From Hericium rajendrae (Eukaryota > Basidiomycota > Agaricomycetes > Russulales > Hericiaceae): a stretch of 64,000 nt of DNA. The stretch covers positions 930,001-994,000 of the forward strand of contig CM065891.1 in the NCBI GenBank assembly GCA_033439255.1. The letters are read 5' to 3'. Positions 4,411-36,192 of this stretch are shown here, one piece after another (the stretch's first letter is position 1; each line of letters starts with the position of its first letter). Below the pieces are notes generated by a model. That model made no database searches. It saw only the letters and a program-made list of their open reading frames with translations, and was not told the DNA's origin. A program made the translations under genes and the position numbers.

Positions 4411-6869
4411 TAGCACAAAGACCGACAGCGGCGCGAAGATAAAGTGACGCACAAGACCGAAGACTGGGACTCGCGGACGCCGAGGGCGTGCCCCGCGTAC
4501 ATAGGACGGGTGTACGCCATGGCGGCGGGATGAGTGCACTCGGAGCTCGAGTGAAGGAGGGCCGTGTATGAAGTGCGACCGACTATCGTGCCCTCGGACG
4601 CGAGGATAGAATCGAGAAGAGCACGCTTCTGGCCCTCAGCGTTCAGAAAGCCGCGCAGCGTGCGATGGGAACGGGGGTAACGCGCTGATCGTCAGGGCAG
4701 CGTTGGATACGAAACGAATGTGTCCCGATGCTGGGTCGAGTGCAGTCCAGAAATGACGAATCTGTCAGATCACGGAAGGAGGGCGGGGGCAAGGAGGCGA
4801 GTCCTGGCGAGTCGGGCGGGAAGGAAACCAGGCAACGCAGGCACTTGTGAATCCATGGTGACTTGTCGGAAACGGCAAATATGTACAGGGCAGCTTGAAT
4901 TAGGTTCGAAGGAGAGATTTGAATCTGCCGGAAAGCGCGCTCGCTTCCGAATCTTCATCGCATCTCGTCGTAGCCCTGAGAATGCTAAGCGCCACACGAC
5001 TATGGAATCCGAGAGCGGCCTGCTCGATTTTCAGCGAGAATGGCTTCCATATATGGCATTTGTTTGTGTAGGGCGGTGCTGTCGTCCACCGGACCCTGAT
5101 CACTCCCTGATGAGCTATTATCATCACGTACATCTTATCTTGCGGCACGTTCTACCAACGATCTAGATAGCGATCTGTGCAGTTTTGCCTCCGTCCTGTC
5201 TGTACCTAGTATACATATGTACAGTACGTGTTGTACATGCTGCAATATGAATTTAGTCCACATAGTACGCATTATTCTTCTTGCTGTCGCCCCATTGAGC
5301 TCTTAGTCTGGGCTTCTTTCACATCTGTACGAGGTATTAACTCGTTCTCACACGAGCCCTGGAATACTGAAAGGTACGTGCATCTTCATCGGGACCGTGT
5401 AGCTTTGAACTCATTGTTCTCTTGTAGTAGCCTGACAGCCTCCACGTCTATCGCCACCTTCGTGTCCTAGACAACCCGACGAACCGTAGCGTACCTGCCA
5501 CGATAAATTTAAGTGCCGTCAAGAAAAGGCCCTGAAAGTGGTCATCCTGTTCAACTTCACAATGTAAGCCATGCGTCTGATCTCACCTTTGCCGTAGTAA
5601 CTCTGCAAATAGCGAAACACGTCAAGTCTGCTCATGAGGCAAACAGTGTCTCCCATCTCGAAGCTTCTCAAGCCTATCAGCCTATCACACGTCAATCTTG
5701 CTCTCGAGTACATATGCGCTTGCAAAGCTTTCCATTTCGTGTGATCAAGTTTCTGAGGTTTTCGTCGACCACCGGTTCGATTCTCATTCGCATTAGGCTA
5801 AAAACATTCTGACTATCGGATTACAGTTATCTCAAGGCTGCGACAGGCCCCGCAGGTCTAGCCACGCGAGGCGTACCCCACGTACTCGATGATGATGCCC
5901 TTGGCATGTCACGCGGAACGTTGTTGAGAGGGTGTCAGGCCAGCATGCAGCAATGGGGAGGTAGCGATCGACATGAGGTGATGCCACTCCATTCGTGACA
6001 AGGCAGTAAGCAGCTTTTCGTCTTCCAAAATGTGACAAGTATACTGACCTCGAGAATCGAGCCACGGCCTCCAACTCAGACGCGCCGCCGACGATAGTGG
6101 AAGATACGCTTGGCATCCACATCCATGGTAATGACCAGATGATGATGCTTGGGCGTTCATGTGCAGGTACGACAGCCTTTGGAAAGATACCATTGGGCAG
6201 CGACCGGCCGTTGCATGGGGCAACACGCTGCAACAAGGTGAGTTTAAGTAGCTGTACTTTTTGCCGAAGTTGCTGACTTACCTCGAGTCAAGCTCCAGAT
6301 TGCAGCAATGGGTGCCAACAGCTACGCGGACTCCGCGTTCAACCCACGTGCCATAAGTTGACGATGACACCTGTGATGGCCACGTGAGTGCAATGTCAAC
6401 TGCGTGCAAGGTGTCCGGCCTGAAGACACGATGGGTGCCCGCACCTCGTAACTTGACCATGACGCTGTCCGCGCATCATGCCGGCGTGAGGATATCCAGA
6501 CCGGAGACTGCGCCAAATACACCGGCACCAAGTACTTGACGATGATCGGTGATGCGCAGGCATTGACGAGAGACTGGGGGTTGACACGGGAAAAACAGAA
6601 GTGGCCCGGCATGGGGGACATGTACTGAAGACAGTAAGTTCCTGCACCCGTTCGAAACCAAGTATGCTGACCTTCAGGAAGAAGTCGGTGTCTCCGACGC
6701 GCAAACCCGGTCCCCGATGGCACAATGCAGATGCGCACGTGAGGTTGCTTGACCATGACACCCTCGTGGGTCATTGGAGCATGATACCGGAAGATCGAGA
6801 CTGCAGTGGGTCAAAGACGGTGGGCAAACCAGGCTACATAACCTGGCGATGATGCCTCTGGCCTATCGC
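4411..6869. other. Intergenic stretch with relics
   Basis: No intact gene seen. It is the upstream side of the minus-strand gene ending at 1212. Positions 5001-5026 carry a 26-base word that recurs in opposite orientation near 28,317. From about 5,830 on it holds the degenerate repeats listed separately. Confidence 0.5.
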
Positions 6870-8609: not shown

Positions 8610-11600
8610 ATGGCCCAATTTACCATTCAAAGTGAGCCTTCTGTGATGGATCCCAACAAGCGGAGGGTCGCCTTCACCACGGATCACGACACCCGGCAGA
8701 AATGCAAGGGATGCAAGAAATTTTCGTACCGACAGCGAATGTTTTATCTGCAAAATGAAAATGAAGGACAGGCTGGTCATTGGGTCTGCCAACAGTGTAA
8801 TCGGTATTATCTTACCAAAGGAACAGGTGCGTTGATTATCTATCTCGAACCAGAACAAGGCGCAACTGAATCTTGATCGACTTCTCGTAGACCATCCGGA
8901 GCCCAAAGGCAATCGCGTTGATAGCGATTTGGACGATCCCGAATATGATGATCCTGGACCTGGACCTCCATATTCTCAGAATCCTCCAGCATCCCAGGCC
9001 GCTCAATATCAGCTTGTTCGTCGTCAGACCATCTGAAAAATCTGAAATCTACATAGCTGCCAGCCAATGCTATTTCTGGTTCCATAGTGCTATGGCTGCT
9101 ATGTAGTTGGGCCACACAGCTATACAGGACTATGGTAGCTATCATAGCTATTATAGTCATGGGTGATGGGTATATAGTATTACATAGTGATAGGACACTA
9201 CTATGCCTGCTATGTAACTTATGTGCCTTTAGTCTCCCTCTATGTATCCTATAGATACTATGTTTCATACAGAGCTTCCAAAGGTTACTATGGACTCTTA
9301 GGTTGCTATAATATCTATAGTTGGTGTAGAGACTATGATTTCGAGCATACTATATTTGAAACAAGTCAAACTTAATTATATTTAAGTACTACTACAGTCA
9401 AGTATACTACGTTACATGCGCGCTCGGAAGGTGACAAGGCGTGCACGCGCACAAGGGTGCGGCTGTGCGCGACGCTGCACGCAAGGTGCAACGGCGCGGG
9501 CGAAGCTCGCGACCCGTGCGCGGGAGCGCGCATGCTGTGGGGCCGGCACATGATAGGACGGGCCTACGCTATGCGGCCGGCCTGCGTGCGGGAGACGCGG
9601 ATCGTGAGATCCGTGCGCAAGTCGTCGGGCCCGTGCGCGAGGCACCAGGCCCATGTGCGAGGCATGGGCATCGGTGGCGGCAGCGAGAGGCGTTGGTGGC
9701 GGCGGCAGGAGGCGGTGGCGGCGGCGGCGGAGCTGTAGGAAGGTGGCGGGCCCGTGCGCAAGCCGTTGGCATGCAGTGGCCCATGCGCAGGGCGCTGGCG
9801 TGCGACGGACCCGTACACGGGGGCTAGAGCCTGGTGCGGGGTATGCGGGGCATGCGCAACATGGCAGGTCCGTGCGCGATGCTGCAGGCATGCGTGCGAG
9901 GCGCGGTGGCCGCATACGCGAGAGGGCGGCGCGAGGCGTGAGGTGCGGGGAGGGCATGGGAGGCGTAGGACTGCGGCGCACCTGCGTATGGCCATGCGCG
10001 ATGTGCACGCGTGTGCGTGCTGTCCAGCATGCGCTGGTGTGCCCGTCCCGTGTCGTTCGGCGCTGGCATGCCCGCCCTCGGGCGCGTGCGATGTGCGCGT
10101 GTCTGTGCGTGCGCGTGTGCTGGCATCCCCGCATGGCTGCGGCCATCCGCCGCCAGTGCGCGCGCTGGCGGTGCCTCGTGTACGCTAGCGGGGCCGCACG
10201 CACGCAGCACGGCAGGGCGGGCCCGTTCGCGAGACGGGGAGGCTGCGCAGAGCGTACCTGGCGCACGGGCCAGGCAGCAGCGCCGTAGACGGGACGACGG
10301 GGCCATGCGGGAAGGGCAAAGCCCGTGGACGAGGTGGCGGGCTCGCGTGCGCGTCGTCCGCGCGATGTGCGTGCGCCAGCGCACGGTCGTGGTCGTTAGA
10401 GACGGCGCGCCAGGTCCTGCGGGCATGACGGCGATGTCGAGGGGTGAGTCGATGAAGGGGAGACGGCGGCGGGAGGCGAATGGACGGGAGAGGCCCGCAA
10501 GGGGGACGTAAATGGAGAGTATCGCTCGAACGAGTGATACTCTCTGCGTTAGTACGAATAAACATAATATAACTTTTTTTTACTCACCTAGGGAGTCCTC
10601 ATTTCCTGTCACCCTCCTTCGACCTTCGGTTTGACGAGAGAGACGTCGAAAAGAGCAGAGGAGTGGAGGGAGAGGACTAGACGAAGAGGTGGTAGCACGA
10701 GTGAGCAACGAGTTGAACTCAGACGCGAGTTCGGTGCTTCAGCCCCGAACGGGCGAAACTATGTTGCTCGAGCCTCAACAAATCAAATAAAATCGTGTAA
10801 ATTCAAGAAAAAAGATAACAGTGATAAATAATACACGAAACTTGAATGCATGAGACCAATATGTATCTACCATATCGTGGACCTCTCAACAACTGCATCA
10901 ACGTACTAAAGTCTGTCAGCCCAGTCTCTGACGCGACGCTCGGCAAGCGCCCGGCAGCCACGAATCCCGGCTCTGCCCGGGATTCGTATATAAGGCTCGC
11001 GCGACGCGCGCTGCCTCTTGCTCTTTAACTCCCACTGTCTCTTGCCACGTCGACACCTTCGTCGACATCGTTTGCTCGCTTATCGTTGTTCTTTGCTCGC
11101 TCGTCGTTGTGTATTTGCTCGCTCGTCGTTATTTCTTGTTCGTTGCTATCTTTAAGGTATTCTTTTAATTGTTGATGATCTCTTATTGCTTATACTAATA
11201 CTAATGTCTTTAAGTTAGTTTTTCAGATTTCGCTTTTTGTTACTTTGGTAAGTTCTCATATGTTATCTTTATCTTCTAAGACTCATGTTTTCTTATCTTT
11301 TCTTACTTAGTTTATTATCTTATCTTACTTATCTTATCTTCTTGTATTTTCTTATCTTACTTATCTTACTTATCTTATCTTATCTTCTTGTATTTTCTTA
11401 TCTTATCTTATCATTTTCTTACTTATCTTTTTGGCTTTTAGTTAGTAGTAGTGTTTGTGATATCAATATAATCTTGATGCATTGAAATACTTTATATCTG
11501 TGTGATCATATATTATCAATTTTGATATAAAAGATTTAGAGTTCTAATAAATTTTATTGCTTTAATATATATATCAGGTCTACATATTAAATATAAGATA

Positions 11601-14462
11601 TATAAGACACATATTGAATGTAGGATATGTAAGACATATATTGTACATAGGTTATGTGAGACACATATTGAATATAGGATATGTAAGACACATAAGCCTT
11701 ATAGGATATGTAAGACACATAAGCCTTATAGCTTTCATAGCTAGTCATACTATTATAGCTACATAGTCAGCTCTCATAGCTATGATAGCACTCCATAGCA
11801 CTCCATAGCATCACCTTTGAGCTTCATAGCACTACATAGTATCACCCTTTGGCTATGTGGGCTATACAATAAAGGGCGATACTATGAAGCTAGGAGATCT
11901 ATGTAGACTTTATAGAGCTATGTACCATTGGCAAATTTTTCAGATGACTGCGTCTGGCCAAAGGGGCGGTATGTTCTGTTGGCTTTTGGGTCGCTCTCTT
12001 CCTTCATTCATCTGATATTTATTCACAGAATCCCAATACCCTGTCCGCGCAGTGGGCACCAGTGTCGTTCATGGCCATCAGGGCCAACGTACCTCTGGTC
12101 CATCGATGGCACCGCCTACTGCCCGAGGCCGGCCTCACGTTCGTGTCACAAGTGGGACGGCAGTTCAAATATTGTCTCCTGGTTCCATGTTTCCACCGGA
12201 GGTTCTGGAGCATGCGTCGCAGTCTGTAAAGGCAGTTTCTCAGGAAAAGGCCAAGATCCTGCACGAGCAGATGTGCCTTCGTTTCCAGAAGCTGGCCAGC
12301 CATGATGTAGAGTACGTCACTGTAATTGCGGCCATGTGCACCTTGGCTCCCGGTCGTCTAAAGCATACCATGATCTCAGTGAGTCATCATCACTTGCTCC
12401 GCTTTTCATCTCATGTCAACCGTTGCAGACGATTCAAGAGACTATCAACTATGTCCCGGCCAAGATATCCAAGGACCACCTCAATCTCCTTGTCTATACC
12501 GCCCTGCTTCCTCAATACCTGGCCTGGTCTCATAACTACACAGCATTTACAATGGGTGACTTCGAGTTGAAGAACAAGAAATATGGTCCAATTCTTCGAG
12601 CTACTGAGGACCACCCTTACGCGTTCTATGATGATTTTCTGCAGAAGAAAGGCAAAAGTACTGTGAAAAAATTTTATACCGGTGATGCGCACATGTACTT
12701 GAAGCTGCCTTTCGACAAGCTAGAGATCATTATGGACCACATCGCCGCCATGGAATCTGCAGATGAGCGTGCAGAAGTCAAGCGAGAGGTATGAACTTAT
12801 TTAAACCTGTCGGATCCTTTTATCTCACTTTCAAACCTCTCGAGCTAGGACCGAACTCTGCCCTCTATCGACTTTGCGAAACTGGGCTTCGCAAGTGCTT
12901 CTCAGTCTCCGGCGAATAAGCCTGTTCCAACCCTAACCCATAAAGATAAATCTGCGGCAAGGACTTCATGTTGCGTTCTCTCGTGGCCTGGCTAATAGCT
13001 CGTTTTTTGCAGAGGCCCGGTTCACTTCCTGGAAAAGAAGCTGTTCATCCAGTGGTACTTACTCAAAACAAACAGCTTCATGCCCGATCGTCCAACAAAA
13101 AGCGTGATTCAGAGGTGCACATCATCACCGTCACCTATTAGTTTGCGCTAAGCCACTGCTCCGTACAGGTGGCTGACTTGTCAGATGGAGGCCCTCCCTC
13201 GAAGTGCGTAGCCCAACCTGAGACGGAGGAAGCCTGCCGCATTCAAGCGGCGCTTCTTAAGCAAAAGTCAATCAGGAAGCGCGAGGTTCAATCTCTCCGT
13301 GAGTGTTCATTTTCCTGTCAATCATGTTCACTTATTCAAATCATGCACTTAGTCTCTACTATCACGGTACAAATCACATTCCATGCCCCGAAGCGGCCGA
13401 GCTTCTCAGAGCTTCTCAGCTTCTCTGATAATATTGCGCTGGCGGAGACCGCCGATGTCAAGACCGAGCTTGTCTATGACACGTCAGGCACAGCTCAGTT
13501 TGGCGCATTCAAGAAAGGTAGGGAAGCCTTGGTATCGATACCGATTTTTTTCTGGCCAGGTTCCTCCCTCAAGGTTTGCATGAAGCAGATGGTGTACGAC
13601 AATCCGAAAGGTCCTCAATACCCACGTCTTCCATACGACAATCACCGGCAGATGGCCAAGCTGAAAGGCGAAGTCAGCTGCTCTATCTGGGCGAATGCTC
13701 TGATGGGCTTGGTGTATAATTTTGTAGACTCTGAGTCCATAATCCGTGGCCCACCCAACTTTTTCATCCCTCCGATGAGGTTTGTAGAGGCTGGCATCTG
13801 CATTGGAGTCGCTGGCAGCCCTGACAAGCGTTTGGTTGCGCTGTTGGAAGAGTGGATAGACCAGGACGTCGACGGTCCATGGCACAAGTATTTGGGCAAT
13901 GGTTCGGCCCACGTTCTTCCTCTGGAGGATGAGGAAGATAGGCATCGAGCAAATTTCCTGACATTTGTTCAACACGTTCAGTACTGGAAGACTGGCGGGC
14001 AGGCCTTTGTTGCGGATTTCCAAGGTACGTCTTCTGGCTGCTTAGGAAAGGCACACCGGCTAAAATTTTGCTAGGTGGAAGAACCTTATTATCAGACCCA
14101 CAGATTATTACGAACCCGTATGTGCTTCAGTATGATTCCTCGGCTGCTAAATCCGATCTTGCGATTAGGGCTCTCGGACGCGGAATTTTTGCGGAAGGCA
14201 ACTACAGTCCTCTCTTCAACCATTTTCCGAACGAGCACCAATGCAATTACGTCTGTGAATACTTCGGCCTCAAGTCGGTGCCACAAATGGAGACCGACTT
14301 CTTTGGCAAGGGCAAAGGCAAGGCGTTGGGCACATCTCAGCAGCCCATTGATCTTAGTGACGACGGTATGAGCTCCATCAATCATACGCTGGTACAACGA
14401 TCGCTCATAGTTCTTCGTCAGATGGCCTAGGCACAAAAGACATGGACATATCACAAATGTAG
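8610..14462 (+). CDS. Alpha-type protein kinase gene, split by element A
   Basis: Exons: 8610-8826, 8891-9029 continued at 11949-11968 after removal of the insertion, 12029-12378, 12429-12788, 12849-12956, 13013-13114, 13169-13298, 13353-13517, 13560-14024, 14075-14117, 14169-14365 and 14422-14462. They sum to 2,337 bases (778 residues) only when element A and one AC duplicate are left out. The N terminus has a CxxC...CxxC zinc-ribbon-like motif (CKGC, CQQC). The C-terminal alpha-kinase (MHCK/eEF2K-type) domain shows FGAFKK, LKVCMKQMV, the ADFQGG and DPQI catalytic segments, and the zinc-binding HQCNYVCEYFGL. Substrates are unknown. As it stands the first part reads into a stop just inside the element (QTI then TGA). 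The kinase domain lies downstream and could only be made from an internal start. The intron at 12957 appears to be of GC-AG type, which is the least certain junction. Confidence 0.85.
9430..10510. repeat. GC-rich, strand-biased core of element A
   Basis: About 1.1 kb with strong G excess on the plus strand, many GCGCGGGC and GTGCG words and a GGCGGC run near 9,690-9,735. Long open frames occur on several frames at once, as expected from GC-rich repetitive DNA, and none has recognisable domains. I do not call a gene here. Confidence 0.6.
10515..10544. repeat. Conserved hairpin of element A
   Basis: GAGAGTATCGCTCG, a 2-base loop AA, then CGAGTGATACTCTC: a 14-base stem with one mismatched position (G against T). 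The same hairpin occurs in element B at 25068-25097. On the minus strand it lies immediately after an intron acceptor. Confidence 0.85.
10544..10587 (-). other. Probable conserved minus-strand intron in element A
   Basis: Minus-strand GTGAGTAAAA donor, CTAAC branch-like word and GCAG acceptor. The matching site in element B (donor at 25138) keeps the donor, the A-run and the CTAAC word, which suggests a spliced minus-strand transcript in both elements. Confidence 0.55.
10987..10994 (+). promoter_or_regulatory. TATA box inside element A
   Basis: TATATAAG, followed by a pyrimidine-rich leader with CTCTT and CTTGC words. Element B has TATATAAGG at the equivalent place (25538). The downstream transcript has no recognisable ORF. 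Confidence 0.55.
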
Positions 14463-15493
14463 TTGTTAGTCCCAAAATTTGGCATCGGAGCTATCCTCTT
14501 AGCTTAGCTTATGTCAAAACACTGAATCAAATGCGCTGGCAAATGGCCGTGTGCATAGTATCCTTCACCGTGTCGAGTTCGAAGCAATCACAATAAGAAT
14601 ACCTCTAGCGAACTTGCTGAGATGACTTTCACTCTCTGGATCATTGTTCAAGATGAAGCTACCAGTAGAAGATGAATCTTCAGGCTCGGAAGCAGAGCTG
14701 GTATAATCAGCAGAACAAGCAGAGGGGTCATGGAGCCCACTCGCTGTCCAGGAGAACGTGACCTGTCCCGGCGCCCTGAAGCGCACGAGCGATAAGGCAA
14801 AAGAGGACCGTTCTTTACCCTACAGAACAGCGGTCGCAGCGTGGTCAATGCCAGTCTCGGCGCGTGTCTGGCTGCCCAACCACGACGCGATCGCGGCGTC
14901 TTCGACTGATGCTGCGATGGCTATGAGTATGAGTCGAAAATCCAACCATTTGGTTTGTTAGCCAACGATCACATAGCGATGGTGCAGAGGCAAATCTCAA
15001 CGTCTGGCAATGCATGATAATTAAAGACGCACAATATTGCACTAATATTGCCCGACTCGGACGCGTGAGGGACACGGAGGTGACTGCGTCACGATGACAG
15101 TGACAACAGTCACATACATGCCATTGCTCGACCGTCGGCACGTACTAATCTCTAGGAAGTTCACAGAGGGCTCTTCACTGCATTAGGAGTCTGATGATGT
15201 GCAGAAAAGCTACTTCTCATGTCTTTTGGTGGAGGAATGAGTGCATCACATGTTTGTCACATCGAGTGTGATGTCTGAAGACGCGCGTCGCGCCTTGTTC
15301 GTCTTTACAGTACTCCCTCCGTCGCAATGTGATCACCCGCAGTTTCTCGCAGCAGACCTCGATCGAGCTCCATCTGCCTCCGTGTCTTCCGCCTCATCGA
15401 CGACCAGGTGTGGGTAGAAACGAGCGGCACCATCGAGTTCACCACCACCAGCTCGTGCGCGTGATGCGTGAAGCACTTGCTCTTCGATCTTGC
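14463..15493. other. Intergenic, about 1 kb
   Basis: Lies between the end of the alpha-kinase gene and the 3' end of the protease relic. No supported gene, RNA or repeat seen. Confidence 0.5.
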
Positions 15494-17520
15494 TTATGTT
15501 GATTCTAATTGCGATCCTGGTTTGCTGACGGCCGCCATCAACACCATCAGCGAGCGGCGTGCAGCGACGAGTCGCCGAGCCTGACCGTCGGCATCGTCGC
15601 CAGGCGCAACCACAGGCTCGCCTATGCGCGAGAGGTCCTCCTTGATGACCTCCATGATGCCGCGGATCGGCTCGCCCTTGATGAACTTCCTCACCTCCTC
15701 CATGTCGAGCGTGTCATGCTCAATCAGCACCTCTGCGAGCTGCAGGCCGTCAGGTCAGCGTACGTTGTACGGAAAGAGGGAGGGGACGTACGCGGTGGAG
15801 CTCGGTCAGCTTCGAGCTCAGCAGCACCTCGACCGCACCTGGCCTGAGAGCAGAAGACTGAGGAAGGAAGCATGGGTCAGCGGGAATAGCAGGTAAGAAG
15901 CACAGGCACGTACCTCCGGACTTCGTTCTCGATTTCCTGCCGCTTATGCACGCTGATAGTCTCCCTCCGTGCGGTCGTTCAAGAATACAGGCCCAATCTT
16001 GTCGGAGTAGCCGTAGTTCTATCGTGCACATAAAAGGGCAAAACGTGTCAGTACGGCCGGACTCCGAGGATTTAGCAGGGCAAACACATCCCGCAGCGAC
16101 CGCACCCGCAGCGGACAGCGCGGGAAGAGAAGGGGACCCGAGGGAGAATTGCAAAAACACACCTTGACCATCCGTGTTGCAGTCGACGTCGCATCCTGCA
16201 AATCCGACGCCGCGCCGCTCGTGACGTTCTCTGACCCGAAAACTACAAGGTAGACTCAGCGAGAGCACAACAACAAGAACGAAACCCCACGCACTCAGTT
16301 CCTCCTCGACACGCCCCCCAAGACACACGTCAATATTCGCTCGGAACTTCTTCAACGAGACCGACAGCTGGTCGTCCTCCGGCAGCATCGAGGTCTGCAG
16401 GCATCACGTTAGTGGCGGATGGAGGCGAACGGGGGCAGATACGTATGATGCCGAGTGCGTGCCCGCGCGGTACGGACGTCACCTTGTGCAGCGGCATCGC
16501 GCTGTCGGTGTACAGCGCTGTAAGGGCGTGGCCGCCCTCGTGGTATGCCGTCAGACGCTCGACCCTGTCGTTGATGTACTGGCTCTTGGGCTCGGCGTCC
16601 ATGACGATGCGGTCCTTGGCCCACTCGAGGTGCTTGAGACCCATTGCGTTGGCATGTTCCTTGGATGCCTGGATCGCGGCTTGGCTGTATATGCGTTAGG
16701 CATCGCTCGCACCACTGAGACGGCATATACTTACTTGACCATGTTCTGCAAATCTGCACCTGAGAAACCAGGCATGCCGCGAGCGACAATCATAGGGTCG
16801 ACATCTGTCGCAGCTCGCTAGCACAACCGTTCAGTACTGTTTGAAAAGTATGCACCTTTGTCAATGATGACCTCAGTCATATGGTGCTTCAGAATCTGCG
16901 CATGTCCTCAGACATGAGGCAAGGGGACCACAATATGCCTGTCGAATCGTCCCGGCTGAACCAGCCGCCCTGTCCGTTGATGCATTAGCAGCGAAGCAAG
17001 AATGCCCAATATATGTGCACGCACTGGTCAAGGCTCTGCGGGAAGTTCGTTGCAGCAATGATGATGACGCCCTCGGTCTGCAAGAAACCATACATGTCGA
17101 CGAGCAGCTGATTGAGCGTCTGCTTCATATACTGTCAGTCACACGCGCTGCGCTTCCCGCCGATGGCATCGAGCTCGTCAATGACAATAATCGCAGGTTG
17201 CTTGCTGTGCGCCGTGGCGAAGAGCTCGTGCACGCGTTTGGTGCCGACATCCACGAACATCTCATCGAATTCAGATCTGGATGCGAAGAGGAAGGGCACA
17301 CCAGCCTCACCTGCAACGGCGCGCGCGAGCATCGTCTTACCGGTGCCACGCAGGCCCGTGAGCAGGATGCCCTTCGTAAGCTTGCTGCCGAGCGCGGAGA
17401 AGATCGTCGGGTCCTTGAGGAAGGCGACGATGTCCTTGAGCTCCGACTCCTTAGCCGCGCCCTTGTCCATGTCGCGCCCCTCTTCAGATGTGGCACCGCC
17501 GTCCATGGCTGACTTGCCAC
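15494..17520 (-). pseudogene. YME1-type (FtsH family) AAA metalloprotease relic
   Basis: Derived from the mitochondrial inner-membrane i-AAA protease. Recognisable parts in order: helix DIVAFLKDPT, Walker A GLRGTGKT, pore loop FLFAS, Walker [26 protein letters not shown], second-region motifs RPGRFDRH-like and ARGMPGFSGADLQNMV, the protease zinc site HEGGH near 16,540, and the C-terminal helices ending at 15494. It is broken several ways: TGA at 17135-17137 where the family has Gln (RDxQYMKQ), TGA at 16908-16910 where Arg is expected (PxVxGxAQILK), a frameshift near 15,960, and a degraded donor near 16,295. The mitochondrial presequence, transmembrane helix and start of the AAA domain are absent, so it is a 5'-truncated copy. 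A functional YME1 gene should exist elsewhere in the genome. Confidence 0.88.
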
Positions 17521-18108
17521 ACCACCGGAGTATGTATGTGTCCTTGTCCTATGGCTAGCCGCTGCCACCACCGACTGCGTAAGCGCAGAGCGCGCCGAAC
17601 TCTGCGTTGATGACCCCGCCGCTGTCATGGCATGCATAGATGGGCAGGCTCGCGGTCCAGTAGCATATATATTTGTAGTGTATGTATTTGTAGCGTACAT
17701 GCAGTATCGGTAGCAAACAATAAAGTGAATTTTTTGAAATCCTCATGAATAAATCGCGTTCGACGGCATGCGATGGCATGCGACGACAGAAGGCCGCTTA
17801 ACACGGGTATCATCAGAATGTCGAATCGCATCGCATGAGATCAGACACGAAAGCAAGGATTGATGCAGTTTGCTACGATGCGAGCTCCTGTGATTGTCGT
17901 GCCAAAATATCAACTGAGATCGGCGCTCGTTGGACGGCACCGCCCAACTCTGTCTCATTGGGCTTGAGGAGTCGCTGGCCCGCGGCCCGTGGATCCCGGC
18001 CTGCCGCCTCCAGTCTATCTTCGCATTTTTCATCGGCGCGCTGAGGGCTCCTCAAGCTCATCTACTGTCGTCCATTGGGCACGTATGCTAGCTTTCTGAT
18101 TTACTACC
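17521..18108. other. Intergenic
   Basis: AT-rich patch near 17,660-17,760 with TATTTGTAG repeats; otherwise nothing identifiable. Confidence 0.5.
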
Positions 18109-19951
18109 ATGCCTAATCAGCACAAACCTATTCGTAAGCTTCCTTCAAAGCCCTGTTCCGCAAAATAGAATTGCCCTAATTGCTTTTTGTTTGACAGCCC
18201 CTGAAGACGAGCTTCGTCGCTGGGTTACTTTGTACTACAACTTCCGAAGGACTGACGAACAAATCGCTCGCCTTTGCCTTCTCCAATTCGATTCAAATAC
18301 TTATGGTCTAAGGTATGCCCGGCCATCCTTCAAGGTTACTTTACCTCACACGATTGCCTATCAGTACCCGCACTGTTCGACGCCTTCGGGGCAAGTGGGG
18401 TCTCACCAGCACTCGTCAGCAACAACACACGCTGGAGAGCATTTCTCAAGCCGTGTTGGATATCAAGAAAATGTTTCCCCATCGGGGCGCTCGCAAGGTC
18501 AGAGATGCTCTATGGTTTCAAAAACATATCAGGGCCCCGAGGTACGTGTCTACCTCAATAGAAATGTTCTGATGCAGGACTCACAGTGTTTTCTGCCAGA
18601 GAGCTGGTGGAGGAGTTCCTCAAGAATCATGAGCCTGAAGCAGTGGAGCGTCGCCGTCATGGTCGCCTGAAACGTCGCCGCTATTGGTCTGCGGGTGTTA
18701 ACGACGTATGGGCCCAGGACCAGCATGACAAATGGATGCGATTTGGCCTGTACATGCATAGCAGCATAGAGGTACACTCCGGATTCATCAACTGGATGAA
18801 GATCTGGTGGACCAACAAGAATCCCGACTTGTAGGAAAATACTACTTGGACTTTGCGCGAAATCTCGGAGGTATCTTTATCACCTTTTTGTACACAATAT
18901 TTGCCTGATCTTTATTGCCAGCTATTCCGCTAATCACTCAAAGCGATCCTGGTACGGAGAATTATGGAGTCGCAAACTTGCAGACCGTAATTCGGAGACG
19001 GCTCGATCCATCCTTGCAGGACATGCTCCAGCACCGTTGGATGCGTAAACACACCAACATTAAACCAGAAATCCACTGGTCTATGTGGCGACGGGATGGG
19101 TCGCCGGGATTTGAGAACATTTTGGAGCATGGCATCAATTCAGGCTGGTACGACCCGACCAATGAGCTGGAAAGGTAAGTCACGTTTTGATTCGAAATTC
19201 TCCAGGCTGTGAATTGAAGCGGGTCATCTAGACTGGTTTTTTTGTGGCTTGCAATTCCATGGCTCCAGGCAGAAATCGACTCTTGGGTACATCAGCAAAA
19301 CGTGACTGCACGACGTGCGAATCGCAACAAAATATTACCCCATGGAATTCCAGCTCTCATCCTTCACAGGCCTCAGGATTATGGGGCAATGGACTTCAAG
19401 GTTTGTTCGACCCTGTATCTGTAGCCCCATGCTGAAGCGAGCACATCTAGGTCCATGTCCCTGAGCCAACGCCTTTGTTTGATGAATTGGAGGCAGAGTT
19501 TGCTCCTCCCGATCACCCGGTATTCCACCTGGTTCCGCCTCCGTTTGAGCAGCAGATCAAGAAGCACTACTCTGACTTGGGTGAGCCGCCTGTGGATGGT
19601 GACACATTTTGGGACGTATACAATCAGGTTCTTGGGCGGTTTCAATCCGCCCCAGTCAATCAAGAGCTAGTCACTGTCCTAGCATCATCTCATTCAGAAG
19701 ATAGCTACGAAGATGTCCCGGAGCCTGATCACATTCCACTTCTACCCCTTCCTGCATTTCGTCCTGCTGTACCCGTGCCCGTCATTCCCTTTGGCCCGGA
19801 CATAGAGCTAGAGTATCGCGGCGGGGCAGATAATCCCCAGATACCCTCTTTTCTGCAGACCTGGCGATCAGAAGGGAATAACGGGAGTGAAAGCATTCCG
19901 CTTGCGAATTTCACAGATGATGACAGTTCGGACAGCGGGGAGGAGGATTAA
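18109..19951 (+). pseudogene. Integrase-core (DDE) protein gene with a frameshift
   Basis: Matches a family of integrase-core proteins common in basidiomycetes. Exons: 18109-18133, 18198-18312, 18365-18541, 18600-18870, 18922-19174, 19232-19400 and 19451-19951. An N-terminal helix-turn-helix part (TVRRLRGKWGL) is followed by the catalytic core: VNDVWAQDQHDKW with the first Asp, and TQSDPGTENYGVAN with the second. An acidic Ser/Asp-rich tail ends DSGEED. The frame breaks near 18,823: the sequence reads AATCCCGACTTG, and one more C would give the expected NPRLVGKYYLDF; as it stands a TAG follows at 18831. No terminal repeats were found, so it may be a stationary, domesticated-type gene and not part of an active element. 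Confidence 0.8.
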
Positions 19952-21002
19952 AAAGAAAATAAATGTATATACATATATCTACCGAGCAATATATTCTCTA
20001 GTATATCCAGCTGCGTGCAGGTTGTGGACACCTTTCATCGCAATTCCATGTGGTCTTCGTTCTTCCACGTTAATGTTATTGAATCCCGATCTGGGGCGAT
20101 GTTCAGGTCAAGCAGCAGGCCGGGGCAGGCCATCCGCATTTTCAGTGGAACACAGGTCCACTCCGTCTCACACGAGCGTCGCCTGCCACAACGAGCGACA
20201 TCGCGAGCTGCATTCCACCTTCGCGCCCACACCACGTAACTTGACGATGACGCCTTGGAAGCCGCACGTGCGATGCTGTGGGGTGGAGAGCCCGACGGGC
20301 CAGATATTAAACTTGAAGGTCATGCGAGACGGACCCATGATCCCGCCAACCAACTCCCTGCTGGCGCTCTCGCCATTGTCTGAGCATGCGACATTGTAAG
20401 TGAAAAGCGGGCGGCGAAAGGAGAATGACAAGATGCGACGACCTTGCGAAACACGAGACCATGAGTTCTAATCCCCCTTTGCATGCGACAACAACTCACC
20501 ATCATGCAGAACAGCTTGCGCTCGCTGCATCCACCACCGAGCTAACCGAATCACAGACGAGTTTCATCAAGAACTTTCATCGGCGCCGTACCATCACCCT
20601 TCGCGTTCACCGAGTCCGGAGCGATGCGTTCGCCGCAAGTGTATCTGCGGTTCGGCCGACCTAACTTGACGATGACGCCCTGCGTGCGTAGTCCAGCTGT
20701 CCGCGAGACCCGACGAGAGTGCGGGTGACGGTGCAAGGCGCCAGAACCGGGTCGGGGAGCGTCGTGCTAAGAATGGCTAAAGTCGGCGAAGAGGCATACT
20801 TAGTCGACGAGCACAACACGGCGAGTGCGCTGGAATGGCGGGGTGGTGTGAGAGACCCCACACCTTATGGTAAGTTCTTGCATCATTCAACCAACATGAA
20901 TAGACAAAGCATGGCAGTAAACCGAGGTATGCGACTTTGGATTAGAGATCGAGATGCCGTGGTGCAATGACAGTGCATCAACAGTGCATCTGGCATCGGA
21001 AC
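19952..21002. other. Intergenic with two repeat-word copies
   Basis: Holds the two cleanest copies of AACTTGACGATGACGCC (20,234 and 20,658). Minus-strand peptides GVIVKLRG and GVIVKLGR are read there, but no gene can be built. A short open plus-strand frame at 20,719-20,970 has no recognisable domain. Confidence 0.45.
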
Positions 21003-21739
21003 ATGGCAAGCATGCTGCGCAAGGTCACGTACTCCGGCTTCCGCATGGGCACGTACAAGTACTTCAAGGACGCGTGCGTGCATCCCCTCCGCTGCTGGTG
21101 TGGCGCTGATGCGGTGCAGGATATACGCGCTCGGCGCGGGGACGATTTCGAGCAAGAGCCTGGCGCGGAAGGTGCTCGCCGCGACGGTCGCGTCGACGAT
21201 TGGCTCGTGCGTTCGTCCTGCCCTTCCTGTCTTGTGCAGAGCCTGATGTGATGCCGCAGGGCCATCGCAAATCCCACCGACCTCGTCAAAGGTACGCCTC
21301 AGTCCGCACATCTCCATTCCTCCTGGTGACGCCCGCCGACAGTCCGCATGCAGGGATATTATCCAGAGGGCAGCCCGTACCACAAGACGCGGCACGCGTT
21401 CGCGACGATCTACCGCGCCGGCGGGCTGCGCGCGCTCTACCGCAGCGTGGACGCGACAACCGTGCGCGGTGTCGTGCTCTCCATGTTGCAGATCTGCGCG
21501 TATGATCAGACGAAGCAGACCGTGAAGCGTGCGGCGCTCATGGAGGAGGGTGTGCCGCTGCACGTCGCCCGGGCGAGCATGCTCACGGGGTTCGTGTGCT
21601 CTGTGTTCTCGAACCCGGTGGGTGTGGTGAAGGTGTGCATGATAAATGATAAGGAGTGCCGGTTCAAGGGCGTGGGGGATTGCATACGGACCATCATGGT
21701 AAAGGAGGGCCCGGGCGCATTTTTTAAGGGCTTTGGGAT
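21003..21739 (+). pseudogene. Mitochondrial carrier family protein, 5'-truncated
   Basis: Inner-membrane metabolite carrier of the three-repeat SLC25 family. Exons: 21003-21073, 21120-21206, 21260-21291 and 21343 onward. Visible parts: MLRKVTYSGFRMGTYKYFKD (end of the first repeat), then PTDLVKVRMQ, which is a second-repeat PxD/E-xx-K/R motif, then GLRALYRSVDATTVRG and a third-repeat NPVGVVKV. Most of the first repeat is missing. The last helix is unclear because the likely C-terminal strand (FGIVGTNSFVLF, near 21,757) is in another frame. It could be an expressed fragment, but I think it is a decayed copy. Layout resembles dicarboxylate/oxaloacetate carriers; the substrate cannot be assigned. 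Confidence 0.65.
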
Positions 21740-22601
21740 GTGCTGGGCAAGGGTGAGTGGTTTGGCATCGTTGGGACCAACTCCTTCGTCCTCTTTTGCC
21801 AGAAGTTTTTGCACAGGCAGCGGCGCCTCGTCGGCGGCTACCATCAGGAGCTGGAGTACCTTGGAAAGGGCAAGGATGCATACGAGGCAGCTCTCCAGAG
21901 CATGTTATTGGTTTTGGAGGGCAACACATATATTTTCGTTTCAACAAATGCTCACAATCTTGACGACAGTGGCGTAAGAATCGATCGTGCCGTGTTTGAG
22001 GAACAATATGGGTGGTGATTCGGAGCGCTGCACGGTTTGTGCACGGGACCCTGTAGAATAGCAATATATGCTTCGCATTGTACGGTACGAACAGCGGGGT
22101 GGAGCTTTTGGTTCTATTTCCACCACCTGCCGCGAACACGACCCAACCAGAACCTCTAGAGGCTGAGCGCTGAGCCGTTGCGCCGGTGCGTCGCGTCGCG
22201 ATCACGTGACCTAATCAACAGTTACAATGGCCGCCTGTCAAGGGCCACAGGCGCGACTTCTATAAGACAAGAACGCCGTCCGGGTTGAACTCAACCACCC
22301 GTCTCCCTGCCCCCAGCTCAGGTCAGTTTAATCCGACTCCTGCTCCTCCCATTTCTTTTTTCTTTCGCCATGGCGTGCGCTGCTTGGTTGGGTCTCTCCA
22401 AGGCTCTGCCGCGGCGGCGCCTTGTGCTCTCGGACAGCGTGCGGTTGCGTCTCTCCAAGGTGCTGCCGTGCGTCGTTCGTCTTTGGATACCCCTTTTCCA
22501 CTCCTTTCCCATCCTCTCACGCACGATAGACTTCCATTAACACAGCTGGTATAGTTGATCCACCACCAGCCGGCTGCATATCATACCTCTAGCTACCCAC
22601 C
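21740..22601. other. Intergenic and 5' region of the dioxygenase gene
   Basis: Contains ATCACGTGAC (22201) and TATAAG at 22261, the latter about 340 bases before the start codon chosen at 22602, so a long or spliced 5' leader is likely. A short open frame (22285-22554) is probably leader sequence. Confidence 0.45.
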
Positions 22602-25600
22602 ATGTGCCTACAGGTCGGTGATCGCAGCCCTTGTCCGTCGTTGTTACTGACCACCGCTTGTTCATAGCTTCACTCTGGCCGACAATACGGGAACATTCCC
22701 ATTATCTCCACACCGTTCAAGACCAACCTCCGTTTCGGGGACCTGCTCAGTAAGGCCCTCAAGCGAGAAAAGGAGCTCGCCGACTTCAACGAGAAGCTCG
22801 CCGCACTTGCCGATGCCAACCCCATGCACGTTGAGGTCGACGGAGCAGAGGGTACTGCCAACGGCTCCACGTGCAGTGCTGGTGCGCGCGATAGTGCTTG
22901 CGGCCCATCCGAGCACAGGCCGAATGATGGCGAGTGGTCTCCCCACACGCTGTCTCCCTTGACCACATCAGGAAAAACCGCAAATCCATCAAACATGCTT
23001 ACCGATCATCAGAAGTTTGATGGGCGCTACTGATGTCAGATTAGCGCTACTGATCTAGACTTAGTGATGTAATAGAAGAATCATGACCACTGTAATTTAG
23101 CCGTAGCTTCTGTAGCACGTAATTATACAAGGCACATTTTGATCAAGGAATCTGTAGACATCATCTACCTGCTGTAGCTATGATGCGCCTGCTGTAGCTG
23201 CGGTAGACAACGTATTAACATGCATTATATCATCGACTTTAACTATTCTATGATTCTTATATACATATACCATTAGTCAGCAACAAAAATATGATATATA
23301 TGATCAACTCTTATAAGTTTACTTAAGACTGTATAGAGTTGAGTGTTGCCGCATTGTGTGAGCAGCAGGACGAAGAATGTTGCCCAAATATGGGCATGAT
23401 TTGTCGTCTCAAGTGTGGCTGTACTGGAGCGCTGCGACTCAACAAGTTGAAACATTGAAGTCCTGTCTCAAGGTAAGTTCACAGTATGTATTGATACTAT
23501 TGCATATGAAATTATAGGTTCTACTACTGCCCTTGCCTCTGGGCTTTGTATCTGGGCCTTGGCTCCAAAAAATGGTTCTGATAGGTACGTCAAATAATCT
23601 TCTGAATCATAGCACAAATGTTTTTCTCTAGACCTCAAACCTTCATCGATTTACACGATCTTGGCGTCGTTCGAATCATGCTCATCGTAGCTTTCGAACG
23701 AGCCCACATGCGAGGCATTTGGATAAGTATTAGGTGAGTTACTTGTCTTATTCTGATAGGTACTTACTGATAGAAGGATCTTGGCATAGCGCAACGAGCA
23801 GAGCATGTATCGGCTCGTATATAGGCTTGTTCGAATGCTATGACTCATAGCTTTCGAACAAGCCTACATATGAGTCGATCCAACCAGCCGTTGCTCCGCA
23901 GCAAGACATTCTCTCCTCCTGGTAAGGCGAAATTCGCCTTTTAGCGAATTTGTCATATCTCAATCAATACAGTACGTATCAACGACGTTTTAACAGTTTT
24001 GGAAAGCGCTGATTTATACCTTTCCAATAAGCCTACATACACATCGATAGGACCAGGTAGCGCCACGAAACAGCAAGATCTCCTGGATGATGTGGCAAAA
24101 CGTGTTTTTGCCATATCTTGGGATATATTGTACGTATCACAGCTCTCTTAGGCTCGACGGAAAGTTCTAATTTGTAGCTTTCAGATAAGCCCTCATGCGT
24201 CCATATTGGTGGACTTTTCATTGCGCAAGGGACAAACTTGTCCCATCATCCCCCCTCCTAGGCGAGTTTTTTTTTCACTTTCTCAAATCTCCATCATTTT
24301 CTATGATCTTAGGCTTATTTTGCTCACACAATACGGGGCTTTCATTTTATTATATTAATCAGGTAAGTACTGGATGTGTGGTACTGCAATATTGATACCT
24401 ATGATTTCTTAGGTGTCACCTTGGAGGTTCCCACGCCCTCGGCAGAGCGGCACAGAGCAGGACGAAGAATCTTGCCCAAATTTGGGCAAGATTCTTCGTC
24501 ACGCGGAGAGGGCGCATGGTGCAGTGCGGTGCATGGGTGAGGCGCGACGTGGCATGGATGTGACTGTGGGTGCAATTCTGTGAGCGTATGCATGGCATGG
24601 CACAATGGATGGGCTTGTGGGTGAGGCGCAGCACAGCGCAGTGGACAGGCACATGGGCAAGGCATGGTGCAGTGCAGCAGGCAGGCACACGTGCACATCA
24701 GAGACATGGGGTGTGAGCATGGGCACAGGATGCGGGCACACAGGTGAGGTGCAGCGCAGGCATGGTGCAATGTGTGGTCACATAGGCAGGTGCGGTGTGC
24801 AAGGCATGATGCGGGAGAGGCAGGGGGCGAGCATGGTGTGGCATGCAAGCACAGGATGGGCATGGGGTGGTAGGTGGCATGACACATTGGTGGGTGGCGA
24901 GGGGCATGCGGTAGGCAGCGCAATGCATCGGTGGGTGGTGCGACGCATCGGTGGGTGGCGCGACACACGCGATAAGTGGGAGAGGCATGTGGTGGTGATG
25001 TCGAGGGGGGGCCAAAGCAGAAGGGGGCAGCGACGAGAAGTGACTCGAAGGGACAGGGAAGGAAATTGAGAGTATCACTCGAATAAGCGATACTCTCAGT
25101 GTTAGCACAAATAAACAAAGAGATTTTTTTTTACTTACCTGCCAGGCCCTCATCATCCTATAACTGTCCACCAGTGTTTGATTCCACATGAAAGGGGGAG
25201 GAAGGAAGAAGGAGAGGAGAGATGGGAGGGGAGTTGATGGTAGCAGCTGCAAGAAACTTCAATGTGTGTTAAGTCGTTTAACCAACGAATGTGTGCGAGT
25301 TTGAATGTTTGTAATGTAGTAAATCAAATAAAATCAGGATAAATCTGAAAAAACAACAGTAGCTATATTTCATTAGTTTAATTCATTTGAATGATGAAAC
25401 TATCTAGCTATTATACTATAAGCTATTGGAAAGCGACACGAACTTAGTGAAGTCTGCCGTCTTGGTCTCTGATGCAGCACCCGGCAGCACCCGGGCCGGG
25501 TTGCAACAGCTGCATTTCGGGCTCCGCTCGTGATGTCTATATAAGGCATGCATGACGCGCAACCTCTCTTTCTTTCCAACCCCCATCATCTCTTCTGTCA

Positions 25601-27933
25601 TTGACTCAAGCTTTTGCATGGTGAGTCTTCCTTTTCTTATGTCTAGTAATCTTTGTGCTTATGTCTTACCCTTACTATAGGTGTATACATTTTCGCTTTT
25701 TTAAAAATTTTGATAAGTCGCTTTTAGTCTTCGATGCTTCACTAACTAGCTTTTACTACTTGTTAGATATTGCTTTTTTTTGTGATGTACATAAGTGTTC
25801 ATTTGAACCTTTTGTGATGACCTTTATTAATGTTTGTTTGTCTTACAGTCTCTATACTTTTGAATCCTCTCATAGTATAGCCTCTTATAGTACCATGTAT
25901 TTGCTAGTCAATAAATTTTGATTGTTGTTTGATTAAATCCTTATGAACTGCATAAATTTTTTTATTGACTTGGATGTTATATTGAGTGGTCAAGACCTGC
26001 AAATATAACAGACTGTATATGTGCAATAAATCTATTGTAGCATGTATAGACTATGTAGTTGTGGTAGCACATTATAGCATTTGTAGAAGATTGCACATTT
26101 TGAGAACTTGACTTGTCTACAGTAGCAAACCTGTACTACAGTGAACTACAGTAGACAATATCTGTCTACTGTAGGTACGAAAAATAAGAAGAGTCCTACA
26201 GACACTATGTCAACTACTCTGGCTACTGTAGCTACTGTAGCCAACGGTAGTTCACGATAGTACATACGGTTTTTCCAGATGCACACCGCCATCGAGCCCG
26301 GAAGTCACTCCGTGCGACAACGACCGCCTTCCGGAAATTCCCCCATCCCACGACGGCTCGAGCTGCGATAGCTCGGACGAAGATGATGGCCCGGATGAAG
26401 ACAATCTGTCCGATATGCCAGAGCTCGTGGACGATGAGCCCGATGACCCGACGCCGCCTCCTGCTCCTGCCCGGCCCCGCTCGACGCCTTCTGGTGCATC
26501 ACAGGGTTTCAATCCCAGCTCGGGTGACACCACCTCCAGCAAGAACAAGAGAAAGCGGAACAGGAACAAGAAGAAGCCGCGCAAGCAGAACGTCGGGCGA
26601 AAGGAAGGCAAGAAGTGCCGACGTACTGCCACGCGCAGGGAGGAGCGGGCAAAAGCAGCAGCTCAGAGGAACTGGGCGGCACCGCCAAGCACCCATGGTG
26701 CATCCTTCGCCCGCCGCCCACCGCCCGCCACCATCTCCGTGGATGCCGACGCCGCTGTCGACTACCACGTGACAAAGGGCGCGTATACAGCACGCCGGGA
26801 GAAGTCATTGAGCCAGGTGCCCTGGGAGCGTGTCGAGCTGGACGCCCGTGGCTTTGAATACTTTGACTGGTGCGGAACGTGCGTATTCTACCCCTCGCAT
26901 GACCTGAGCACTCATGCAGTACTGACATAGTGTCGCATATGCAATCCTCGACAACGAGGATCGCATCATTGCAGTCCTCGTGCCGCCTCCGCTGGAGGGC
27001 GATGACAGGAGTGACAAAGATCGCTGGGCTGCAGCGATGGAGCGGGCAGCATCTCTGTTCGAGAAAAAACGTGAGGATGCGGACGGGTCCTTTGGTGCGA
27101 AGCAGAAGACCCATCGGCGCGGCCAATTCACCGCGCTTGCAACAGGGGTTTCGTACGGGGGTGGGCAGAAGGTGCAGAGTTAGTACCACCATCCTATTGG
27201 CTTCGCTGACGCTCTGTGCCTAGAAACCCGGAAACCTCAAGAACTCAAAGTGTCATGAAGAACTTCTGCGCGCGCTCACCGATGATGCCGACGTATCGCG
27301 CATTGCTAACTTTCAGAGTGGTATGTCCTGTTTTCTAGGTGCGGCGACTCGGCCTAACACCCTGGTTCAGATGTGATGGCATCATATTTCCCGAAGGTTT
27401 ACACACACGTCTATGACTCCCTCCGCACGCTGTCTGAGAGTCAACCCAACCTTCGCCGCAACTTTCCCGGCGGCAGCATCTATCCCACTGTCACATTTAA
27501 CTTGGGGCCAAGTACAGTTTGCAACGATCACAACGACTGCAACAACGCGCCGGACGCTCCGTGTGCGATCACTGCGCTGGGCGACTTCGATCCAGACAAG
27601 GGGGGGGAGTTGTACCTGTGGGATCTCGCACTCATCATTAGATTCCCCCCAGGTACAACAATTCTGCTATCCTCTGCTAGCATGCGCCACGGGAACCTTC
27701 CCATCCAAGAGGGCGAGCATCGCTACTCTATGACCCAGTACTGCCCGGGCGGTCTCCTATGCTGGGTACGCCATGGTCTCCACCCTGCGAGCTCGCTTTC
27801 CAAACCAGAGCGTGCAGCGCTGGATGGCGACCACAATGCTCGGTGGGCGACGGTACTAGGTCGGTTGTCCAAGTACGATGAGTTGGAGCAGGACCGGGAG
27901 CAGCTGATGAGGTGGGAGCGGAGCCGTCAGTAA
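22602..27933 (+). CDS. 2-oxoglutarate/Fe(II) dioxygenase-like protein (TET/JBP-like), split by element B
   Basis: Exons: 22602-22613, 22668-22965 continued at 26284-26878, 26931-27171, 27224-27320 and 27371-27933. With element B and one CA duplicate removed they sum to 1,806 bases, 601 residues. The N-terminal half is disordered: a charged helix near residues 25-50, then Pro/Asp/Glu- and Lys/Arg-rich stretches that look nuclear. The C-terminal domain has a double-stranded beta-helix pattern: H468-x-D470 (VCNDHND), a WDL strand, H521 (SMRHGN) and R532 (GEHRYS), fitting two His and one Asp for iron and Arg for 2-oxoglutarate. This architecture resembles the TET/JBP-type genes expanded in mushrooms, which oxidise methylcytosine in DNA; activity here is inference. 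As it stands the first part ends in a stop inside the element (22668-23033), so the catalytic domain is cut off from its start. Confidence 0.75.
23369..23408. repeat. Degenerate copy of the 40-base palindrome
   Basis: Begins GACGAAGAATGTTGCCCAAA and continues into an imperfect complement. It matches the perfect copy at 24461 apart from a few bases, and both are preceded by GAGCAG/GCAG words. Confidence 0.75.
23640..24250. repeat. Tandem degenerate repeats in element B
   Basis: Units of very roughly 150 bases share CTTTC(C/G)AA(T/C)AAGCCTACAT, seen near 23,690, 23,855, 24,025 and 24,178, and ACGTATCA near 23,970 and 24,130. No protein is recognisable. Confidence 0.6.
24461..24500. repeat. Perfect 40-base palindrome
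   Basis: GACGAAGAATCTTGCCCAAA followed directly by its exact reverse complement. With the degenerate copy at 23369 it brackets about 1.05 kb, which suggests a nested insertion or a paired protein-binding site. Confidence 0.9.
25068..25097. repeat. Conserved hairpin of element B
   Basis: GAGAGTATCACTCG, AA, then TAAGCGATACTCTC; the stem has three mismatches. It corresponds to 10515-10544 in element A. A minus-strand intron (donor GTAAGTAAAA, complement of 25133-25138) ends just beside it. Confidence 0.8.
25538..25546 (+). promoter_or_regulatory. TATA box inside element B
   Basis: TATATAAGG followed by a pyrimidine-rich leader; counterpart of 10987 in element A. A donor-like GTGAGT lies about 80 bases downstream. 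Confidence 0.55.
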
Positions 27934-35339: not shown

Positions 35340-35460
35340 GGTCAGTCTGGGAGCATCGCACGAAGAGAATAGACATTGAGAATCAACGGCGAGTTGGAAC
35401 ACCTCCATCCAAATTAGGCAAGATCGAATCGGGTTGCACCACAGGTGCCTGAGCTGGAGC

Positions 35461-35493
35461 GGCGGGCACTGGTCTATCGATATGAGACCAGCT
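35461..35493 (-). repeat. Right terminal inverted repeat
   Basis: Inverse of 31822-31854 with one difference, followed by TA. The transposase start lies about 120 bases inward. Confidence 0.93.
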
Positions 35494-35539
35494 GTAAGAC
35501 AGGTGCCGCGCAAATCCAGCACCTTATGTAAGATTATGT

Positions 35540-36192
35540 AAGGTGGTGTGGGAACCGCCAAATCTGCTGGCACCGACACATCCGTACCACGCTGACCTCC
35601 CAATGTACAACCACACCCCACTCGTGAACCTCCACTTTGACGTGCTCGAGGACTTTGCACGCAAGGGGAAAGCCACTCTCGTCTGCGAGCGCAGCAAGTT
35701 CACACCCCAGCAGTGCGTCAAGACACCCCCGGGCGCATTCCAATACGTACCCCCACCACATGTGCACTAGCTCTCCCAGAACTCGGCATGCTGCAGCTGC
35801 TGCATGGCGGCAGCAAGACGGTGCTTTTCAAGAACATTGCGGATGGCGCGCCGCTGTTCCTGTTGCCGCAGCGACTTTTTTCGCATAATGGCAGCTGGGG
35901 GGGTGTTGCTCGGCACGGCGAGCTCATTCGGGAACCTGCTGGGCACGGCGCGAGCGGCACTGGGCATGACGAGTGGCCGTCGCAGTTTTTTTTCTACTCG
36001 AATGCACTGTCTGCGACGACCCATGCGCGCAGCTTGGTAGAGCTGCCAGAGGATGGTCAGACATTTAAGGAGCTGTTCACGGGGTTGTCATTGTCAAATG
36101 GGTCTGGATCTGGTCCTGCTGGCATCGGGCTCTGTGTCCTTTTCGTTCCCGAGGGGTGCGGCATGGCTGCTGGCCTCCTTCCCTTTTTTTAA
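35540..36192 (+). other. Possible coding remnants right of the transposon
   Basis: Two open plus-strand stretches: 35543-35768 (YNHTPLVNLHFDVLEDF...) and 35783-36190 (ELGMLQLLHGG...LFTGLSLSNG). They could be exons of one gene cut at its 5' side, but no consistent junction was found and I recognise no family. Confidence 0.3.

Follow-up and report, generated by a model that had tools for sequence, protein, structure and literature searches.

Two families of non-autonomous DNA transposons, probably of the PlavakaB type, and their shared hairpin module in Hericium rajendrae

A 64,000-nucleotide stretch of Hericium rajendrae DNA (contig CM065891.1, positions 930,001 to 994,000; hereafter the window) carries two elements with terminal inverted repeats (TIRs), A and B. 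This raised the question of which group of DNA transposons they belong to and which enzyme moves them. Our results suggested that A and B represent two families of non-autonomous, PlavakaB-type DNA transposons. We put the probability of this at roughly 0.83, the published families being compared by the description of their ends and target-site duplications (TSDs). A first-pass annotation of the window had left the placement open. It is no longer open, because the ends resemble, and the 2-3 bp TSDs match, those given for PlavakaB in section 3.2.2 of PMC12730594, and Plavaka-encoding elements with such ends are present in the same genome. The CATC-ended elements of this fungus with 2-base TSDs would gain a home in a transposon group with termini published in 2025, and likely source elements for them lie in the same genome.

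Both elements were confirmed as TIR transposons with 2-base duplications other than TA. In the case of A, which is 2917 bp long (9030..11946, plus strand), the left TIR CATCTGAAAAATCTG (9030..9044, plus strand) and the right TIR CATCTGAAAAATTTG (reverse complement; 11932..11946, minus strand) were identical at 14 of 15 bases, and AC stood on both flanks (9028..9029 and 11947..11948). In the case of B, which is 3316 bp long (22966..26281, plus strand), the TIRs CATCAGGAAAAACCG (22966..22980, plus strand) and CATCTGGAAAAACCG (reverse complement; 26267..26281, minus strand) were likewise identical at 14 of 15 bases, with CA on either side (22964..22965 and 26282..26283). Both were regarded as complete, A from its ends, TSD and adjacent end pairs, and B from its ends, TSD and two more full-length copies. 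All termini followed CATC..GATG, and the fifth base was A only at the left end of B and T at the other three ends. The end motif CATC(A/T)G(A/G)AAAAA, proposed from the window, held for the first 11 bases and failed at base 12 of A, which is T.

The whole genome (46.8 Mb, 19 contigs) was searched for such ends, with reversed patterns as controls. CATCWGRAAAAAYYKS was found 64 times and its reversed pattern 0 times, CATCWGRAAAAA 320 times against 36, and the A-type end CATCTGAAAAATYTG 113 times against 0. CATC-type ends are far above chance. The search for paired ends, which the first-pass annotation had proposed, gave 21 adjacent, inward-facing A-type pairs 2.6-3.6 kb apart among the 100 listed of the 113 ends. 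Relatives of A amounted to 64 matching pieces (40 candidates scored out of 648), and the two further full-length copies of B lay at different loci with 99% identity, which points to activity. A matching 2-base TSD was present in 12/12 A- or B-type copies whose two ends both lay in the fetched stretch, the window copies included. The TSDs were AC, TA, TT, CT, TG, AC and AA for the A type, and CA, CA, TA, AA and CT for the B type. Two empty sites were observed. The C2 copy of B halted at 2180 and restarted at 2179, with A-type ends directly inside, which gave 2 bases. The C8 copy of B overlapped by 3 bases at a 3994-bp insert, with an AAG duplication. No empty site of B was found elsewhere in the genome, where its joined flanks were single-copy. 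The joined flanks contained a forward frame open for 173 codons, but one reverse frame was open too.

The first-pass annotation had proposed looking for a longer copy with a transposase. A longer A copy, 9638 bp, contained a nested retroelement and not a transposase. Outcomes named beforehand as unfavorable, namely other boundaries, another duplication length or an enclosing larger element, were not seen for A or B in the stretches read; the retroelement sits inside the A copy and not around it. This retroelement, located at L062:711-8353 (C2:2703010-2710652), gave matches to reverse transcriptase, RNase H and integrase. At C1:374135-388795, two inward-facing ends were separated by 14.7 kb; a hairpin lay 2.0 kb from the left end and no Plavaka match fell between the two, which is perhaps a nested insertion. 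The end sites C1:628671/635508 and C11:44347/51182 were each about 6837 bases apart (start to start) with equal Plavaka scores between, as if a stretch had been duplicated.

A and B had been described as one family. Their ends differ after base 11 and BLAST gave no match between them, and therefore they were assigned to two families. What the two have in common is an ordered module consisting of a G-rich zone, a GAGAGTATC hairpin, minus-strand intron signals and TATATAAG. Outside it they share little; the best local match, 87 bp at 80%, was itself within the module, which bore out the statement that the remaining sequence mostly differs. To judge from these comparisons, A and B are two different families related through the module. 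A transposase encoded in A or B was not found, as had been stated from the window. One minus-strand frame of A and one of B were tested and neither showed a Pfam family at E up to 0.01, and 0/132 genome matches to Plavaka (PF18759) fell in the window.

The 132 Plavaka matches were obtained by a family search of the genome. Three end pairs, each 12.41 kb apart, surrounded Plavaka genes. The copy at C4:1119862-1132277 was read whole and had the TSD TG, and the copy at C2:3857472-3869885 was read at both ends and had the TSD GA, so that both copies checked showed 2-base TSDs. The third, C2:25000-37414, is an end pair around a Plavaka gene. The C4 copy contained a frame for the Plavaka transposase (PF18759, 288 bits), a TET/JBP-like domain frame (E 1.3e-7; 31.5 bits, below the Pfam cut-off of 34.9) and two Ulp1-peptidase-like pieces of 26.6 and 17.8 bits, one above the cut-off of 20.7. 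Membership of PlavakaB is defined to include the transposase motifs C(2)C and H(3-4)H and a position on the PlavakaB branch of the tree; visual inspection of the protein from the 12.4 kb element showed CPKC and HSLVH. This element has CATCT at both ends, and hence the fifth base varies among Plavaka-encoding elements. The eight best-scoring Plavaka loci were only 30-33% identical to its protein, which indicated that several lineages exist whose ends were unseen.

According to PMC12730594 (Kojima 2025), PlavakaB belongs to the CACTA-like CMCT clade and has the termini CATCA..TGATG and 2 or 3 bp TSDs (section 3.2.2). These ends and TSDs were published in December 2025. The same section names TET/JBP-carrying Plavaka elements for Agaricus bisporus and Gymnopus confluens, to which the present elements with a TET/JBP-like frame can be added. 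The main text of that article mentions neither a hairpin nor Ulp1, and a promoter once, in a reference. The first-pass interpretation was supported in part. The group has been known since 2025 from that article, whereas searches of the open-licence literature gave no description of the A and B families, of their source elements or of the module. Sub-cut-off TET/JBP matches of 27.5-30.2 bits were present in the three copies of the 12.4 kb element and in the C14 element discussed below; others lay roughly 8 kb away from the Plavaka matches C9:549710 and C4:348987, where one element may hold both. Genome-wide, 46 TET/JBP-family matches were found, nine in a 293-aa frame and fourteen in a 194-aa frame, mostly away from Plavaka. 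This spread suggests that further mobile families of high copy number possess a TET/JBP gene.

The terminal 300 bases of each element were compared to tie the passengers to source elements. Bases 1-241 of the left end of B matched the right end of a Plavaka-encoding element on C8 (end 1609076) at 70% (E 7e-25). If this C8 element has the length of the 12.4 kb one, a copy of the shared module at C8:1599873 would fall within it; unless that copy belongs to a nested element, the module would be ancestral. The right end of B matched the left ends of two Plavaka-encoding elements, with 50 bp at 78% for the C14 element and 86 bp at 69% for the 12.4 kb element. The 3994-bp insert in the C8 copy of B matched the 12.4 kb element at both ends, over 219 and 36 bases. 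A third kind of passenger, CATCAGGAAAAACCGGAGTTTC, matched the C14 element at both ends, the ends coming from two copies, one each. On the basis of these terminal matches, B and two other kinds of passenger were tied to Plavaka elements. We propose that Plavaka transposases from the larger CATC..GATG-ended elements would probably excise and reinsert A and B in trans, and that reinsertion would leave duplications of 2 and sometimes 3 bases. B would depend on the Plavaka lineage at C8:1606440-1607451. A would also use a Plavaka transposase, although its cognate was not found.

Several points weigh against the PlavakaB placement. A Plavaka-encoding element with homologous ends was found for B (241 bases) and not for A, and in the terminal comparisons the ends of A matched only another, apparently non-autonomous element. 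Among the 83 Plavaka rows (132 minus small fragments), none was enclosed by a pair of inward-facing A-type ends lying within 14 kb, as judged from the 100 listed ends of 113; an A-type end on one side only, 6.1-13.0 kb off, was seen in 4/83. For the minus-strand genes C7:2558710-2559738 and C12:990735-991586, the A-type end was 8.0 and 8.9 kb upstream, compared with 9.8 kb for the left end in the 12.4 kb element. The published consensus in PMC12730594 has CATCA at both ends, and CATCT was found at both ends of A and at one end of B. The C14 element, the one other Plavaka-encoding element with both ends seen, lacked a matching duplication. In addition, the regex that picked the 12 copies demands CATC, and L002, L003, L013, L014, L015 and L057 were seen without both ends and are hence uncounted. 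For A, the placement is based on the ends, the 2-base duplication and the module common to both elements.

These points leave room for two other explanations of the mobility of A and B. They could belong to an unrelated, undescribed superfamily with another transposase, whose ends resemble PlavakaB by convergence. A is linked to Plavaka only by short ends, duplication length and the module, with no cognate found. However, the end homology between B and a Plavaka-encoding element spans 241 bases, the module is common to A and B with its parts in the same order and at the same spacing, and the insert in the C8 copy of B, which also carries the hairpin, matches the 12.4 kb Plavaka element at both ends. 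We therefore consider convergence highly improbable. It is also conceivable that B is a Plavaka passenger and A is moved by another CMCT transposase, from EnSpm, Chapaev or a distant Plavaka lineage. The missing cognate of A and the Plavaka lineages with unseen ends fit this explanation. The ends of A, in contrast, are CATC..GATG with a 2-base duplication, which is the PlavakaB pattern as described in PMC12730594 and not CAC..GTG or TGT..ACA, and a separate transposase for A seems unlikely to us. The PlavakaB placement of both families is thus preferred.

The question of what the shared module does was considered next to that of mobility. The reported ordered module was found in both elements. 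In A, a G-rich zone with a C-rich minus strand (approximately 9430..10510, read directly) is followed by the hairpin GAGAGTATC..GATACTCTC (10515..10544), which was recognized by sequence pattern and whose family was seen genome-wide. A predicted 46-nt intron on the minus strand (10542..10587) has a GTGAGT donor, a TACTAAC branch-like site and an acceptor AG within the hairpin arm, and the TATATAAG box, a TATA box, lies on the plus strand (10987..10994), 472 bases from the hairpin start. In B, the corresponding parts are a G-rich zone (approximately 24430..25060, read directly), the hairpin GAGAGTATC..GATACTCTC (25068..25097), a predicted 44-nt minus-strand intron (25095..25138) with a GTAAGT donor, a GCTAAC branch-like site and the acceptor AG within the hairpin arm, and the TATATAAG box (25538..25545, plus strand), 470 bases from the hairpin start. 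The G-rich zone was A-like in only part of the listed A relatives.

The hairpin pattern, a near-palindrome, gave 188 forward matches genome-wide against 0 for the control, and the fully listed places appeared on both strands with one exception. Among 12 oriented examples from fetched loci, which were not independent (five were B copies and the rest A relatives or neighbours), TATATAAG/A lay 459-472 bases from the hairpin start in 11, and the twelfth was interrupted by an A-type insertion. Introns of 44-49 nt were predicted in 13 models, all on the minus strand with the acceptor AG within the hairpin arm. Three further locus hairpins fell outside the module regex, owing to a locus-end cut in one, a changed donor in L062 and the lack of donor and TATA box in the 3994-bp insert. 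RNA folding of the minus strands gave z values of -1.8 for A and -3.2 for B. In the strand-preference test, 21 distinct hairpins showed 5 G-U against 3 A-C and 1 other. An inward-facing strict end was present within 6 kb of 23/51 listed hairpins on C1-C3 (random placement: mean 2.1, maximum 7; nearby shifts: mean 4.0, maximum 11), and strict ends on both sides of 8/51 (means 0.4 and 0.7). The other 28/51 had none, which ruled out strict ends for every module carrier and indicated that some carriers have other or decayed ends. The module hairpin was found 0 times in IMG/VR contigs.

Protein coding by the minus-strand transcript was not accepted, although it is conceivable. Ten of the 13 spliced models start alike (M..-SIA..SDTL); among the others, A reaches a stop after codon four, a second is out of frame and a third is interrupted. 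Counted from the start codon closest to the splice site, disregarding any in the last three bases, open lengths ranged between 50 and 395 codons, and of the ten models that start alike, 3 stop before 80 codons and 7 stay open beyond 150. However, the zone has a high GC content and more than one open frame in several directions of reading, the hairpin loop variants have lengths of 30, 32, 33, 34 and 36, so that the frame is not kept, and single-base gaps occur between related copies.

The arrangement of signals suggests a divergent transcription unit. A and B would keep a two-way unit in which the TATA promoter reads rightward, and the leftward predicted transcript would be spliced at the hairpin and run through it into the G-rich zone. 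That the module is transcribed and useful is suggested by its conservation. Less likely than not, in our view, it is a selected transcription unit carried by passengers of several end families, whose minus-strand RNA or short peptide may tune splicing or silencing of the elements and which may have passed between families; if so, ends and interior would have separate histories. Alternatively, the module may have no function and be left over from an ancestral promoter region, its similarity being due to shared descent and to recombination between elements, which we regard as a serious possibility with somewhat less than an even chance. Such debris is at least as likely as a functional unit. The stem is near-invariant and not richly covarying, several copies have a broken or short spliced frame, the 3994-bp insert on C8 has the hairpin without the donor motif and TATA box, and the 12.4 kb Plavaka element lacks the module hairpin even at up to 3 changes per arm, all of which favor a remnant. 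Against it, one hairpin arm, the branch-like site and the donor are kept at set spacing at 143 genome places (control 0), and the intron interior between these signals varies widely in the listed rows. The loops also vary in length from 4 to 10 with the arms preserved, and a looser hairpin search gave variants that included a paired, two-sided A-T to C-G stem change in L065 and L059. A conserved hairpin at a predicted splice acceptor in more than 100 places offers a case for testing whether RNA of passenger transposons is under selection.

Other features were noted in and around the elements. B contains the first copy of a 40-bp palindrome-like repeat (23369..23408) and a perfect 40-bp palindrome (24461..24500). 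Palindromes of about 40 bp with differing sequences were seen inside both Plavaka-encoding and passenger elements, including positions 6115-6152 and 8954-8998 of the 12.4 kb element and L055:645-684; those of the 12.4 kb element resemble those of the C8 insert. A comparison of positions 9000-26300 with known RNA families gave nothing at E up to 1 besides a sub-threshold mir-355 match in B (23817-23871; 27 bits against 70.3, E 0.13). It falls on a 74-bp inverted repeat of B and was taken as chance. Downstream of A, positions 13142-14074 gave a weak alpha-kinase match (PF02816, E 0.001, below the cut-off), and A may sit within an upstream exon of this gene. At 34683-35699, weak helix-turn-helix (HTH) and DDE_3 matches, both below the cut-off, were present in one frame, which is perhaps a Tc1/mariner-like remnant.

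Finally, A and B were compared with known systems. Tc1/mariner elements have a 2-base duplication and short TIRs like A and B, but their duplication is TA; since 10/12 duplications here were other than TA (2/12 were TA), this group was ruled out. That A or B is an end or part of a larger Helitron or long terminal repeat (LTR) retrotransposon was ruled out, since copies at many separate sites have TIRs flanked by 2 bp TSDs. Non-autonomous CACTA/EnSpm elements have short TIRs, subterminal short repeats, 2-3 bp TSDs and passengers above the size of miniature inverted-repeat transposable elements (MITEs). A and B are similar in their short TIRs, subterminal short repeats, TSD length and size. However, their termini are not CACTA or CAC..GTG, and the end-matched transposase is Plavaka. 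By analogy, A and B would work like CACTA-type passengers, with a transposase from elsewhere, a short duplication and a large transposase-free interior. PlavakaA shares the 2 bp TSDs and the CMCT clade but has the termini TGT..ACA instead of CATC..GATG (PMC12730594). In comparison with PlavakaB as described in that article, A and B differ in that no transposase was found in them and several of their ends are CATCT instead of CATCA. They agree with it in TSDs of 2 or 3 bp and resemble it in their CATC..GATG termini, and in this genome, as in PlavakaB, elements with CATC..GATG ends encode the Plavaka transposase and some of them a TET/JBP-like protein.

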